64,000 nucleotides of DNA from Pelovirga terrestris. GTDB taxonomy: Bacteria; Desulfobacterota; Desulfuromonadia; Desulfuromonadales; Geopsychrobacteraceae. The DNA is taken from the NCBI RefSeq assembly GCF_014773365.1, contig NZ_JACWUN010000006.1:62001-126000 (forward strand), given 5' to 3'. The position numbers and the translations under genes are program-made. Under the pieces are notes generated by a model that was not told the origin of the DNA, made no database searches, and was given only the letters and a program-made list of their open reading frames with translations. Position 1 is the stretch's first letter, and every line of letters starts with the position of its first letter. Below are positions 54,038 through 58,819 of the stretch, in pieces.

Positions 54038-54721
54038 CTACAACTCTCCCCGATCTGCCAGACTGATATAGGCCCCGTTACCGATAATGATGTGATCCAG
54101 CACGCGGATGCCGAGCAGTTCACCGGCACTTTTCAGGCGACCGGTGATCTCGATGTCTTCGCGGCTTGGCGTCGGATCGCCGGACGGATGGTTGTGAACA
54201 AACAGCACCGCCGCCGCCGATTCCTTAAGGGCCGGGGCAAAAACCTCACGCGGATGAACAATGCTGGCGTTGAGACTTCCTTCGGAGATCTGAACTTCAC
54301 GGATCAGACGGTTCTTGGTGTCGAGCAGCAAAGCGATAAATACCTCTTTGCGATAGTCACACAGACGTTCGTGGAAATGATAGAAGGCGTCGGTGGAGCT
54401 CCGGTAGGTGTTCCCCGGTTGCAGGCGCTGGTCGGAAAAGCGCCGGGCAATCTGGAACATTGCCTGGATTTCAGCCGCTTTGGCCGGGCCGATACCCGGT
54501 TGCTCGCAGAGTTCAGTGATGGTGGCGGCAGCCAGTTGGCGTAACGACCCAAAGCGCCGCAGTAATCCGCGTGCCAGGTCAACTACGCTGTTTTTACTGG
54601 AAGAATCGCCGGTACGGATAATCAATGCCAGCAATTCGGCATCGGTCAGATGATCGGCGCCACGCGCCAGTAGTTTCTCCCGCGGACGCTCGTCGGCGGG
54701 CCAGTCCTTGATGCGTTGCAT
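54038..54721 (-). CDS. radC: RadC/MPN-domain DNA-associated protein
   Basis: About 227 aa. An N-terminal helix-hairpin-helix-like region (WPADERPREKLLARGADHLT; TELCEQPGIGPAKAAEIQAM) is followed by a JAB/MPN+ domain with the metal motif VHNHPSGDPTPSRED (about 170-184) and its upstream Glu. The name reflects history; the biochemical role is unproven in most bacteria. The start at 54721 follows GGAGGGGG. A longer in-frame reading extends into the MITE-like repeat at 54740-54892 and is rejected. Confidence 0.9.
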   Translation of the reverse strand: MQRIKDWPADERPREKLLARGADHLTDAELLALIIRTGDSSSKNSVVDLARGLLRRFGSLRQLAAATITELCEQPGIGPAKAAEIQAMFQIARRFSDQRLQPGNTYRSSTDAFYHFHERLCDYRKEVFIALLLDTKNRLIREVQISEGSLNASIVHPREVFAPALKESAAAVLFVHNHPSGDPTPSREDIEITGRLKSAGELLGIRVLDHIIIGNGAYISLADRGEL

Positions 54722-54739
54722 GTTTCCCCCTCCATTGTA

Positions 54740-54892
54740 GATGGCGTCGCAAAAACTCACCAACTGCTGCGTTGCCGCCATCGTTTCACTGCTTCGACGT
54801 ACGTAAGTATGCCTCATTGTTCAACAATGGCGCGCCTTGCATTTGGCGCTTTTTGCTTAGCCATCCAACCTGATGCTTTTTGCAAAAACATC
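54740..54892. repeat. MITE-like intergenic element upstream of radC
   Basis: Ends GATGGCGTCGCAAAAA (54740-54755) and GCTTTTTGCAAAAACATC (up to 54892) form terminal inverted repeats (GATG...GCAAAAA / TTTTTGC...CATC). The inside contains a further inverted pair (GCTTAGCCATC / GATGGC-like). It fills the gap between radC and the esterase gene. An element of similar sequence seems familiar from other Desulfuromonas-type genomes, but that is recollection, not a search. Confidence 0.55.
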
Positions 54893-54902
54893 ATATTTAA
54901 CT

Positions 54903-55514
54903 TCAGATAGCGCCCTTCAGCTTGAGAAAATCAGCAATCTTGCGGGCCAGGGCTTCGTAGCCGGACGCGTTAAGATGGACAGCATCACTTTTAAGAGAAC
55001 TGTTTTTCATCAGTTCAGTTAAGGCCCCTTCAAGCAGTGGAACTTTCAATTCGTCGGCCAGTTCCTGGTACAGGGGGGCATCCTGAATGATCAGCCCGGG
55101 CTTGGGAACGGCGATAAAAACCACCGGAATGCGGCGTTGGTGGGCTGCTTCGTGCATGCGCCGCAGATTCTCTTTGAGTTGTTGTTCGTCGCGTTTTTGC
55201 AGCAGGTCATTGCCGCCGTGCATAATCAGCACCAGGTGCGGTTTGTGGGTGTCGAGCAGACCGGGCAAGCGACTGGCACCGTCGGCGCTGACCTCGCCGG
55301 GAATACCTGCGTTGATGATGTTACGGCCGATCAGGCGATTCAAATAGGCAGTATAGTTGCTGTCGGCTTCGGCACCGGTTCCAGCGGTCAGACTGTCACC
55401 AAAAGCGAGGATTTTATCGTAAGGGCGTAACGGAGTGAGTCCCGCCGGATTATCACAGGCGCCCAACAGGCCAAGCAGTACCAGTAGCAGGATTGATCTT
55501 AAGAGAACGTTCAT
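54903..55514 (-). CDS. SGNH-hydrolase lipoprotein (TesA-like arylesterase)
   Basis: 203 aa. A lipoprotein signal (LLVLLGLLGAC, Cys about 20) is followed by SGNH blocks: ILAFGDSLTAGTG (block I Ser), GIPGEVS (block II Gly), MHGGNDLL (block III Asn) and SDAVHLNASGYEAL (block V Asp-His). It likely hydrolyses esters or thioesters in the periplasm. It overlaps the DinG-type helicase gene by 4 bp. Confidence 0.92.
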   Translation of the reverse strand: MNVLLRSILLLVLLGLLGACDNPAGLTPLRPYDKILAFGDSLTAGTGAEADSNYTAYLNRLIGRNIINAGIPGEVSADGASRLPGLLDTHKPHLVLIMHGGNDLLQKRDEQQLKENLRRMHEAAHQRRIPVVFIAVPKPGLIIQDAPLYQELADELKVPLLEGALTELMKNSSLKSDAVHLNASGYEALARKIADFLKLKGAI

Positions 55515-58054
55515 CGTGTTTCCTTTGTTGATACAGGGGATTGAAAAAACTGCCGCAGTGTAGCAAAAACCTGCTCGGTTGAGCCACGAATTATTGGTGC
55601 CGGCGGCAGAGATTTAAGAAAAATCCGCCCGTAGCCGCGTTTGACCACCCGACTGTCAAGGATCAGCACGACGCCGCGATCGCTGCGATGGCGAATCAGG
55701 CGGCCAAACCCCTGTTTAAAACGGATAACGGCCTGAGGCACGGTATACTCCATAAAAGGATCGCCGCCGGCAGCGGTGATGGCCTGACAGCGGGCCTCCA
55801 GGACCGGTTCCGTGGGTACCTTGAAGGGAAGCCGGGTGATGATGACCTGTTCCAGTGAGGAGCCGGGCACATCGACCCCTTCCCAGAAGGAGTCCGTACC
55901 GAACAGGGTACTGGAAATCTCTTCGGCAAAGCGTTTGAGCAGGTGATGGCGGTTTTCCTCCCCCTGACGCAGGCAGCGCAGGCGTTGAGCTTCGAGGATG
56001 GGGGCGAGTTGCTCATGGACATCACGCAGCAGGGCATAGGAAGTAAAAAGCACAAAACTGCGCCCCTGGCTGATACGCAGCGCTTTTTCGACAGCATCAC
56101 GGACCCCTTCGGCAAAACCGGGGCGGCCCGGTTCCGGGATATCGGTCGGCACAACCACCAGCGCCTGGTGCTGATAATCGAAGGGAGAGTGCAGGGCCAG
56201 TTGTTTTTGCCGCCCCGCTTCGGTGTGATTCAGTCCGATGCGCGAGCAGAAATAGGCAAAGGAGTCAGCGACAGTCAGGGTTGCGCTGGTCATGACCAGG
56301 GTCTGGACCCGGTCGTAAAGGGCGTTTTTCAGGCTGGCTCCGACATCGAGGGGCGCCTGACAGAGGCTGGTCAGAAGCCCCTTGCCGCGCCCGATCCGCC
56401 CTTCACGGATGTCAATCCACAGGCAGTTGGCGGGGGTGGCGGCCTGAAAGGATGCCAGCTCGCCGGCGATAACACTTAAGCGACCAGTCATGCCCCGCAG
56501 ATCAGTCAGGGTCGGATTCACTTTTTCCGCAATGTTATCGGGCAGCGTTGTCGCCAGTCGGAGCAGAGCAGTCAGCCCTTCTTCCAGCCGTACGGTTTCG
56601 TTGCGTAACCCTTCGAGCCGTCGGCACAGGCGTTGCCACAACTCTGTTGATAAAAAATCACCGAGGATACGATGTTTCAGCTCGGCCCCGCTGCCGACAC
56701 TTTTGCCCAGGGCTGCCGGTAATTCTGAGGCAATCGCCTGCATTTCACCAATGGAGAGCTCATAAAGGCGCTGGCGGCGGTTGGTTAACTCCTCAATTGT
56801 TTCATGGAAATTGCGGTAGAGGGTGTCAGCACTGTCCGGCAGTGCCCGTGTCAGTTGATCGAGCAGGCGTGGCAGCAGCCCCTGCTCCGGTTTGCGCGGA
56901 TGGCGCAGGCGACCTAAAACCCGTGAAAAGGTGAAGCGGGTGATCTGGGCAGAAAAATAGCTGGTGGCGACATCTTCGAGATGGTGGGCTTCATCAAGAA
57001 TGACCCGCTCGAAGGGAGGCAGGACAGCGGTGGCTGAATAATTATCGGTCTGTTCGCGCAGCGCCAGGTCGGATAGCAACAAAGCGTGGTTGACCACCAG
57101 CAGGTTGGCACGTGCCGCCTGACGCCGGGCGCGATGGAAAAAGCAGCGACTGTAGTGGCTGCAACGAACCCGCGCACACTGATCCGGTTCGCAGCATACT
57201 TCCTCCCAGGCCTGGTACGATGGGATAAACGAGAGATCCTCGCGTGAGCCATCTTCGGTGGCGGCCGCCCAGCTGAGGATCTGTTGCAGCTCGGCACTCT
57301 GCTCCTGGTCGAACAGACCCAGTTCGGCACCGGCGGTTTCACCGCGACGCAGGCAGAAATAATTGCTGCGCCCCTTAACCAGCACCGCCTGAAAGTTGAT
57401 ACCGGTGGCGCGCTGTAAAAAGGGAATATCCTTACGGATCAGCTGTTCCTGCAGGTTGATGGTGCGGGTTGAAATCACCACCCGTTCGTGATTGTCACGA
57501 GCGAACAACAGGGCCGGCACCAGGTAGGCCAGACTCTTGCCGGTACCGGTGCCGGCTTCAATAATCGCCAACTGGCGCTGGTTAAAAGCATCGGCCACCG
57601 CAAAGGCCATGCGCAGCTGTTCCGGGCGTTCTTCGTAGTCGGGTAGCTTGCCGGCTATGACCCCGTCGGGACCGAGCAGATCCTGAATCTGCCCATAGTC
57701 GAGATGTTCGCTATTTTTTGCCGCAAAAGGTTCCACCACCCGATAGAGATCATCGACCCGGTTGTTGACGATGAAAAAGCCGACCCCCAGATCGCCTAAC
57801 AGACCGGCGACATCGATATCGGCCGGTGATGGCTCAAGGTTGCCTGAAGGATGGTTGTGGATAACAACATCGCCGTGGGAGCAGGTGTTAAGGATGGCAG
57901 GAACTGCCTTTTTCGAGCCACGGGCCAGCACCTCAACCTGGACAACCCGTAGTGTTACGTCGGTCTGGCCGAGAAAAAATACTTCACGGCCACGGGCTTG
58001 GGCAATGGCGTAGCGCATCTGGTCGAGGCAATCTGGTGAGAAGTCAGCAAACAT
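55511..58054 (-). CDS. DinG-type helicase with N-terminal RadC-like JAB domain
   Basis: 847 aa fusion. Residues about 1-110 form a JAB/MPN+ domain with E41 (VEVLARG), H66 and H68 in VVIHNHPSG and D79 in EPSPADIDV: the RadC pattern HxHPSG(x8)D. A DinG/XPD-like superfamily 2 helicase follows, with Walker A EAGTGTGKS (166-174), DEAH (354-357) and four Fe-S-type cysteines (C234, C288/C293, C298, C304), plus a C-terminal helicase half ending QGFGRLIRHRSDRGVVLILD. Helicases of this type unwind DNA:RNA hybrids or D-loops. It has no LexA-like site that I could see. Confidence 0.93.
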   Translation of the reverse strand: MFADFSPDCLDQMRYAIAQARGREVFFLGQTDVTLRVVQVEVLARGSKKAVPAILNTCSHGDVVIHNHPSGNLEPSPADIDVAGLLGDLGVGFFIVNNRVDDLYRVVEPFAAKNSEHLDYGQIQDLLGPDGVIAGKLPDYEERPEQLRMAFAVADAFNQRQLAIIEAGTGTGKSLAYLVPALLFARDNHERVVISTRTINLQEQLIRKDIPFLQRATGINFQAVLVKGRSNYFCLRRGETAGAELGLFDQEQSAELQQILSWAAATEDGSREDLSFIPSYQAWEEVCCEPDQCARVRCSHYSRCFFHRARRQAARANLLVVNHALLLSDLALREQTDNYSATAVLPPFERVILDEAHHLEDVATSYFSAQITRFTFSRVLGRLRHPRKPEQGLLPRLLDQLTRALPDSADTLYRNFHETIEELTNRRQRLYELSIGEMQAIASELPAALGKSVGSGAELKHRILGDFLSTELWQRLCRRLEGLRNETVRLEEGLTALLRLATTLPDNIAEKVNPTLTDLRGMTGRLSVIAGELASFQAATPANCLWIDIREGRIGRGKGLLTSLCQAPLDVGASLKNALYDRVQTLVMTSATLTVADSFAYFCSRIGLNHTEAGRQKQLALHSPFDYQHQALVVVPTDIPEPGRPGFAEGVRDAVEKALRISQGRSFVLFTSYALLRDVHEQLAPILEAQRLRCLRQGEENRHHLLKRFAEEISSTLFGTDSFWEGVDVPGSSLEQVIITRLPFKVPTEPVLEARCQAITAAGGDPFMEYTVPQAVIRFKQGFGRLIRHRSDRGVVLILDSRVVKRGYGRIFLKSLPPAPIIRGSTEQVFATLRQFFQSPVSTKETR

Positions 58055-58162: not shown

Positions 58163-58819
58163 ATGCCGACAATCCTGGAAATATATCGGCACCTGGGGCA
58201 GGAGTATTGTCTTGATAGCTGGTGGCCGGCGCAAAGCCCTTTTGAGGTGGCGGTCGGGGCTTTTCTGACCCAGAATACCAACTGGCATAATGTCGAGAAG
58301 GCGCTGGCAAATCTCAGAGAGGCCGAGGCTCTGGATTTAGCGCTGCTGGCGGATATGCCTCTGGCGCAACTGGAACAGCTGATCCGCCCATCCGGCTTTT
58401 TTCGCCAGAAAGCCCAGCGCCTGCAGCATTTCTGTCGTTATGTCCTGGATCAGCACGGTGGATCCCTCGAAGATCTGCTGCAACGCGATCTTGAACAAAC
58501 CCGTAACGAGCTTCTGACCCTCTCCGGTATCGGCCCGGAAACGGCAGATTCGATCCTGCTCTACGCCGGTCAGCGCCCATCCTTTGTCGTCGACAGCTAT
58601 ACCCGGCGCTTTTTTGGGCGTTTGGGGCTGCTGACCGGCACAGAAAACTATGATGATATCCGTACTCTGTTCATGGCAGAAGTGAACCGGGAGGTTCCCC
58701 TCTATCAGCACTATCATGCCCTGATTGTGACCCATTGCAAGGAGCGTTGCCGAAAATCCCCCCTGTGCTCAGCCTGTTTTTTTAAAGATATCTGTGATTA
58801 TGCCACTCAGGCGGCTTGA
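58163..58819 (+). CDS. MagIII-like DNA glycosylase (endonuclease III superfamily)
   Basis: 218 aa HhH-GPD protein that resembles Helicobacter MagIII (3-methyladenine glycosylase): SWWPAQSPFEVAVGAFLTQN, LIRPSGFFRQKAQRL and the hairpin LSGIGPETADSILLYA (about 120-135) align well. The catalytic Asp is at 144 (FVVDSYTRRFFGR). The lysine that gives EndoIII its lyase activity is replaced by Glu126, so it should be monofunctional. An Fe-S cluster motif CX5CX2CX5C (C196, C202, C205, C211) is at the end. It stands alone between divergently read genes. Confidence 0.87.
   Translation: MPTILEIYRHLGQEYCLDSWWPAQSPFEVAVGAFLTQNTNWHNVEKALANLREAEALDLALLADMPLAQLEQLIRPSGFFRQKAQRLQHFCRYVLDQHGGSLEDLLQRDLEQTRNELLTLSGIGPETADSILLYAGQRPSFVVDSYTRRFFGRLGLLTGTENYDDIRTLFMAEVNREVPLYQHYHALIVTHCKERCRKSPLCSACFFKDICDYATQAA

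Follow-up and report, generated by a model that had tools for sequence, protein, structure and literature searches.

A RadC-like JAB domain fused to a YoaA/DinG-type helicase in Pelovirga terrestris: candidate metal site, spread and possible function

Introduction

DinG-type helicases may carry a further catalytic domain at their N-terminus. In ExoDinG of Bacillus and Staphylococcus this domain is a DEDDh exonuclease (PMC11981726, section 3.5). Section 3.8 of the same paper names a 'RadC-like DinG' (example, Desulfuromonas soudanensis), in which a JAB domain with an E/H/H/D centre precedes a YoaA-like helicase with a C-terminal helix. According to the available text of that paper, a DALI search with this JAB gave metalloproteases and no nucleases, no experiment had yet been done on the fusion, and the organisms possessing it were observed, without this being made a criterion, to have no HolC homologues. 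The available part of PMC5512222 takes the same fusion as a hint of nuclease activity in RadC and suggests a nucleic-acid role; the nuclease proposal is also made in PMC3482391, as far as its text was available. In the literature searched, which covered few subscription papers, we found no experiment on the fusion and no work that links a bacterial JAB domain to a DNA–protein crosslink.

The helicase part has its own well-described relative. E. coli YoaA is an XPD/Rad3-type partner of HolC; the accessible text of PMC8378479 reports that R619 and T620 of YoaA are needed for HolC binding, and that W57 and F64 of HolC are needed for HolD and YoaA alike. The role of RadC is disputed. Here we describe the fusion protein encoded in a 64,000-nucleotide stretch of the P. 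terrestris genome (contig NZ_JACWUN010000006.1, positions 62,001 to 126,000; 'the window'), together with its relatives.

Results

Architecture of the locus and the fusion protein

Table 1. Features of the fusion locus, in window positions.
Feature	Position	Strand	Basis
JAB-DinG fusion (RadC-like DinG)	55511..58054	-	847 aa, one open frame
N-terminal JAB of the fusion, residues ~1-111	57722..58054	-	structure model, fold matches, alignment
DinG/YoaA-type Fe-S helicase part, residues 135-847	55511..57652	-	domain profiles, motifs
GDSL/TesA-like lipase-esterase	54903..55514	-	ORF and domain profiles
RadC (UPF0758_N + HhH + JAB)	54038..54817	-	ORF and domain profiles

The initial annotation had placed the fusion, the esterase and RadC in one block, and this block is real: the three ORFs share a strand (Table 1) and the esterase and helicase frames overlap by 4 bp. 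A gene for an HhH-GPD glycosylase is divergent from the fusion, its start 108 bp away. RadC-family matches in the genome number three, namely the neighbouring RadC (JAB at residues 139-257, Pfam, 157 bits), a second one on contig C17 (215-aa open frame) and the fusion itself.

Pfam locates a RadC-like JAB at residues 14-83 of the fusion (27.5 bits, cut-off 22.1, E 3.1e-6), followed by DEAD, DEAD_2 and Helicase_C_2; no HhH or other DNA-binding addition was seen in the domain profile search. The helicase motifs are complete (Walker A, DEAH, V/VI, conserved cysteines and the C-terminal helix), with C234, C293, C298 and C304 conserved in 52/52 aligned sequences and C288 in 50/52. By sequence, the closest solved helicases are E. 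coli DinG (6fwr, E 1.6e-46) and exonuclease DinG (8zef, E 1.6e-44). YoaA is the top NCBIfam model (594.5 bits; the NF053712 cut-off of 680 is missed), and the protein stays under the NCBIfam cut-offs for RadC (NF000642, 25.0 of 180 bits; TIGR00608, 18.0 of 133.85 bits). It gives the single PF13307 (Helicase_C_2) match in its genome and is the sole DinG/XPD-family helicase found there.

Pfam, the structure model (below) and the helicase motifs thus bear out the proposal that a JAB is joined here to an Fe-S helicase. The gene is real and its architecture conserved. With an N-terminal RadC-like JAB that carries E24, H66, H68 and D79, a YoaA-like DinG helicase and a C-terminal helix, the protein is a member of the RadC-like DinG subgroup as set out in the available text of PMC11981726.

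Fold and candidate metal site of the JAB

The isolated JAB was modelled with a pLDDT of 88.6 and a pTM of 0.81. Foldseek returned RadC (2qlc, E 9.7e-6) as the best match, and VIA-align to JAMM/MPN structures gave Z 9.7 for Rpn11 (4ocl), 8.8 for AfJAMM (1oi0) and 8.8 for RadC (2qlc). The region first read as a JAB therefore has a JAB fold in the model, besides a Pfam match above cut-off.

Residues were compared across 57 JABs (34 in alignment A2, which covered 34 of the 50 JABs first collected, and a further 23 drawn from Gemmatimonadota and additional families; the duplicates L090 and L110 and the unrelated frame L100 were dropped). E24, H66, N67, H68, P69, S76 and D79 are kept in all 54 intact JABs and R45 in 53 of them; E41 is kept in 31, with R at its position in 14. 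An earlier alignment of 52 sequences had H66, H68 and D79 invariant and E41 in 47. The metal pattern initially proposed, E41/H66/H68/D79, therefore stands in its last three members, whereas E41 is rejected as a ligand in favour of E24 because of their conservation (31/54 versus 54/54). E24 also aligns with E158, the KEVF glutamate of the window's RadC (profile comparison, probability 96.9), and is the residue that matters for mutation.

The model places the candidate ligands as in JAMM enzymes: E24 comes before strand 25-31, H66 and H68 lie at the end of strand 63-68, and D79 is near the start of helix 77-88. The sequence E...HxHPx6SxxD, which we take to be the JAMM/MPN+ motif, is matched with S76 included; this proposed oxyanion-type serine completes the predicted JAMM(+) set, with E24 replacing E41.

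RadC (UPF0758, 2qlc) and the fusion both have a JAB of the RadC clade, with HNHPSG...PS..D and a glutamate that opens the first long strand. The initial statement that the two sites are identical in form holds for this common motif but goes too far elsewhere, as eight RadC residues, HPRE included, are absent from the helicase JAB. In addition, RadC has a UPF0758_N/HhH part that the fusion lacks, and R45 of the fusion corresponds to a glutamate in the window's RadC. The helicase JAB is net acidic in 34/34 sequences (mean -6.9); the RadC JAB is acidic as well (mean -3.6, 18 sequences). Net charge is a crude test of substrate.

Distribution of the fusion

A query with the full protein matches 145 of 146 genomes of the host class (completeness ≥90%), and the listed match ranges include the JAB part in at least 139. 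Among the remaining seven, five are cut or apparently cut at contig ends (G025 and G092 at contig ends; G118 and G080 begin at contig bases 4 and 26; G069 is taken as cut by comparison with L023), G050 has no JAB and G145 has no match. Across the host phylum, 23 of 247 genomes match the JAB profile strongly (≥120 bits), 10 of them class members and 13 from five further families. The other matches listed reach at most 39.5 bits and lie in RadC-sized frames, except for G217, which holds a degenerate JAB (L099, see below), and G379. The weak profile match in G379 falls in a 554-aa frame (L100), one of several long frames that overlap there; we took this frame to be spurious, with a RadC-like motif inside it, and rejected it.

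Strong JAB-profile matches (E 4.9e-14 or better) were obtained in 113/150 genomes of a sample of Gemmatimonadota, the phylum of the Gemmatimonadaceae record L056, and only weak ones in a further 4; most of the matches are in frames of >800 aa but a few in short ones, with DinG identity confirmed for the fetched ones only. The fusion is also present in a Candidatus Auribacterota genome (L048), its JAB scoring 19.6 bits, below the Pfam cut-off of 22.1.

The architecture is usual in the host class and common in the Gemmatimonadota sample. The main text of PMC11981726 contains no word beginning 'Gemmatimon'. Since the fusion is common and its architecture already appears in the available text of PMC11981726 and PMC5512222, it is not remarkable in itself, contrary to what had at first been supposed, and interest based on rarity falls. 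The details that are new here are the degenerate and lost JABs, the arrangement in G050 and the presence of HolC beside the fusion.

Degenerate and missing JABs

Three of the 57 JABs lack the full ligand set, L096 and L097 from the Gemmatimonadota sample and L099 from the host phylum; as they were fetched for their low scores, this proportion is not a frequency. Pfam reports no JAB in them at E 0.01. Their helicases have Walker A, SAT and motifs V/VI intact, and DEAH too, but DETH in L096. We found no mention of degenerate JABs in the available text of PMC11981726.

Outright loss was also seen. Of 33 Gemmatimonadota genomes without a JAB match, 20 were checked: six have a DinG without JAB, and 14 no DinG at E 1e-20. 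In G050, one draft genome from another order, a JAB-less DinG follows a complete radC of the same orientation at a distance of ~55 bp (locus L123; RadC ends at 2625, the likely dinG ATG is at 2681), and a single RadC-family match is listed for this genome. Judged by sequence, some proteins have an inactivated JAB or none at all, yet retain the helicase motifs.

On a quick tree, computed without a mixture model, the JAB-bearing proteins do not form one group: five changes are needed, at least three of which are forced by starred branches. JAB presence or absence needs three changes and the degenerate JABs two; Chlamydiota proteins, which have no JAB, are nested within a JAB-bearing group (branch 97). 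The branching order is unsure because of long branches, and a single origin of the fusion is neither shown nor excluded by this tree.

HolC and HolD in fusion-bearing genomes

The P. terrestris genome encodes HolC (G000:C11:153746-154144, E 7.5e-27). HolC occurs in 64/146 class genomes, 63 of which have the fusion while G145 has no fusion match; one match in these counts (G093) is partial. All are from the host order (64/75, versus 0/71 in the rest of the class). HolC was further found in 4/12 genomes reached through named loci, including Geothermobacter hydrogeniphilus (via L030), which has both. RadC-like DinG as described is without HolC, whereas the window's genome has it; we take the HolC statement in the available text of PMC11981726 to be at fault, not the membership of the fusion in RadC-like DinG. 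A published statement used to separate this subgroup from YoaA is thereby corrected.

A HolD profile matched 0/78 genomes in the host order. HolD diverges fast and the search used one profile, which among 14 control genomes matched only E. coli, so this null is not proof of absence. In four fusion-bearing genomes HolC keeps W57 and F64 (4/4). The fusion is like E. coli YoaA in its best NCBIfam model and its C-terminal helix; it differs in falling under the 680-bit cut-off, in carrying a JAB and in that R619/T620 were not seen at its C-terminus when the C-termini were compared by eye. A similar C-terminal segment, again by eye, is retained where HolC is lacking, for example in Desulfuromusa kysingii and Geobacter types. 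Dependence of the segment on HolC was therefore rejected, and the segment gives no support for HolC binding. A link between the fusion and HolC is possible.

Linkage with radC

Among the flanks of the fusion loci, radC was found only beside close relatives (among L004-L018, L023, L049 and L063), and the GDSL gene likewise accompanies the fusion only in close relatives; within the flanks of the other loci, many of them cut by contig ends, no radC was seen. In the host family radC lies within 5 kb of the fusion in 16/19 genomes and on a different contig in the other three (family sample 21; G032 and G103, with no separate RadC listed, were left out). Adjacency to radC is thus mostly confined to the host family, G050 with its JAB-less DinG being an exception of another kind. 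That the two genes form a conserved pair in general is not supported.

Discussion

We tentatively read the JAB as a putative Zn-dependent hydrolase that serves a replication-repair helicase, with a protein substrate slightly favoured. The helicase, assigned because its motifs are complete and YoaA is its best NCBIfam model, would be a YoaA/DinG-like 5'-3' Fe-S enzyme with the task of opening blocked replication forks or gaps; this polarity and role are those of its relatives. The N-terminal JAB is a candidate JAMM(+) hydrolase, with predicted metal binding, because the JAMM(+) set is kept in 54/57, E24 falls on E158 of RadC and the fold is that of JAMM. The helicase would expose or deliver a substrate, and the JAB would hydrolyse a bond in it. 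Degenerate JABs with an intact helicase, the six JAB-less Gemmatimonadota DinGs and G050 suggest that the JAB is an accessory dispensable for unwinding. With the JAB near-universal in the class, those relatives that have an inactivated one or none are natural mutants in which the role of a RadC-type JAB at a helicase could be probed. As the target, a protein encountered on DNA and cleaved at a peptide or isopeptide bond, though short of an even chance, appears slightly likelier than a phosphodiester or nucleotide, which we nevertheless consider a serious candidate; a non-catalytic role takes most of the remaining probability.

On the phosphodiester alternative, to which we give appreciable if lesser weight, the JAB would be a metal-dependent nuclease or would process nucleotides, trimming whichever strand the helicase has opened in the manner of the DEDDh exonuclease of ExoDinG. 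The JAB sits where other DinG subgroups carry nuclease domains (PMC11981726, as available), which together with the nucleic-acid role in the available part of PMC5512222 runs counter to a protein preference. A nuclease is what PMC5512222 and PMC3482391 propose, as far as their text was available, and R45, a glutamate in the window's RadC, could bind phosphate. Against a nuclease stands the acidity of the JAB, which with the lack of a DNA-binding addition weakly disfavours a DNA substrate. The invariant set, S76 included, is moreover that of JAMM peptidases. The DALI matches in the available text of PMC11981726 point the same way.

It seems unlikely that the JAB serves chiefly for docking or dimerisation and has no catalytic part (like MPN- partners), possibly pairing with RadC. 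Ligand-less JABs do persist ahead of intact helicase motifs, radC is adjacent in most of the host family, and the G050 DinG follows its only RadC-family match as if RadC had substituted; but docking alone would not demand that all catalytic residues be kept in 54/57, radC is missing from the other fusion loci (many flanks cut), and G050 is a single draft genome. An annotation artefact, in which two genes or a chance motif had been mistaken for a single protein, has a negligible probability and was rejected, for although the JAB Pfam score is modest, the same single frame recurs in Gemmatimonadota and in the majority of class members, and the structure models are confident.

A bolder form of the hydrolase reading, which we hold to be more doubtful still than docking, would make the fusion part of a clamp-loader-linked machine. 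The Zn hydrolase would clear a protein block, or an unusual one, met by the helicase, chi (HolC), with no HolD found, would serve the helicase and not the polymerase, and RadC could replace the fused JAB, as in G050. If so, RadC, long a functional puzzle, would itself act as partner to helicases of the DinG type.

Inspection by eye of the 108-bp divergent promoter gave no clear match to a LexA box, using a pattern for Geobacter-like LexA. Over the whole window this pattern (≤2 mismatches) has 227 matches, 200 of them listed by position as far as 56594, against 193 expected, a count as high being reached in 4/100 shuffles.

Genomic context of the fusion

HolC occurs in the genome that encodes the RadC-like DinG (JAB-DinG fusion), outside the window. 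This co-occurrence is contrary to a statement in a review (PMC11981726) that organisms with the fusion lack HolC homologues. HolC is present in 64 of 146 class genomes, and the HolD profile matched none of the 78 genomes of the order. The starts of the fusion and glycosylase genes are separated by 108 bp.

Coordinates of features
Feature	Location	Remark
HolC	G000:C11:153746-154144	genome of the window
Second RadC-family gene of the genome	G000:C17:10146-10481	open frame 215 aa
HhH-GPD DNA glycosylase gene	window 58163-58819	divergent from fusion
radC, DinG	L123:1933-4900	class genome of another order

At L123, DinG without JAB lies directly behind radC (the sole radC of its genome among the matches listed), as if RadC stood in place of the fused JAB. 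In DinG proteins L096 and L097 (Gemmatimonadota sample) and L099 (phylum of the window), the JAB domains are degenerate and have lost metal ligands, a parallel to pExoDinG.
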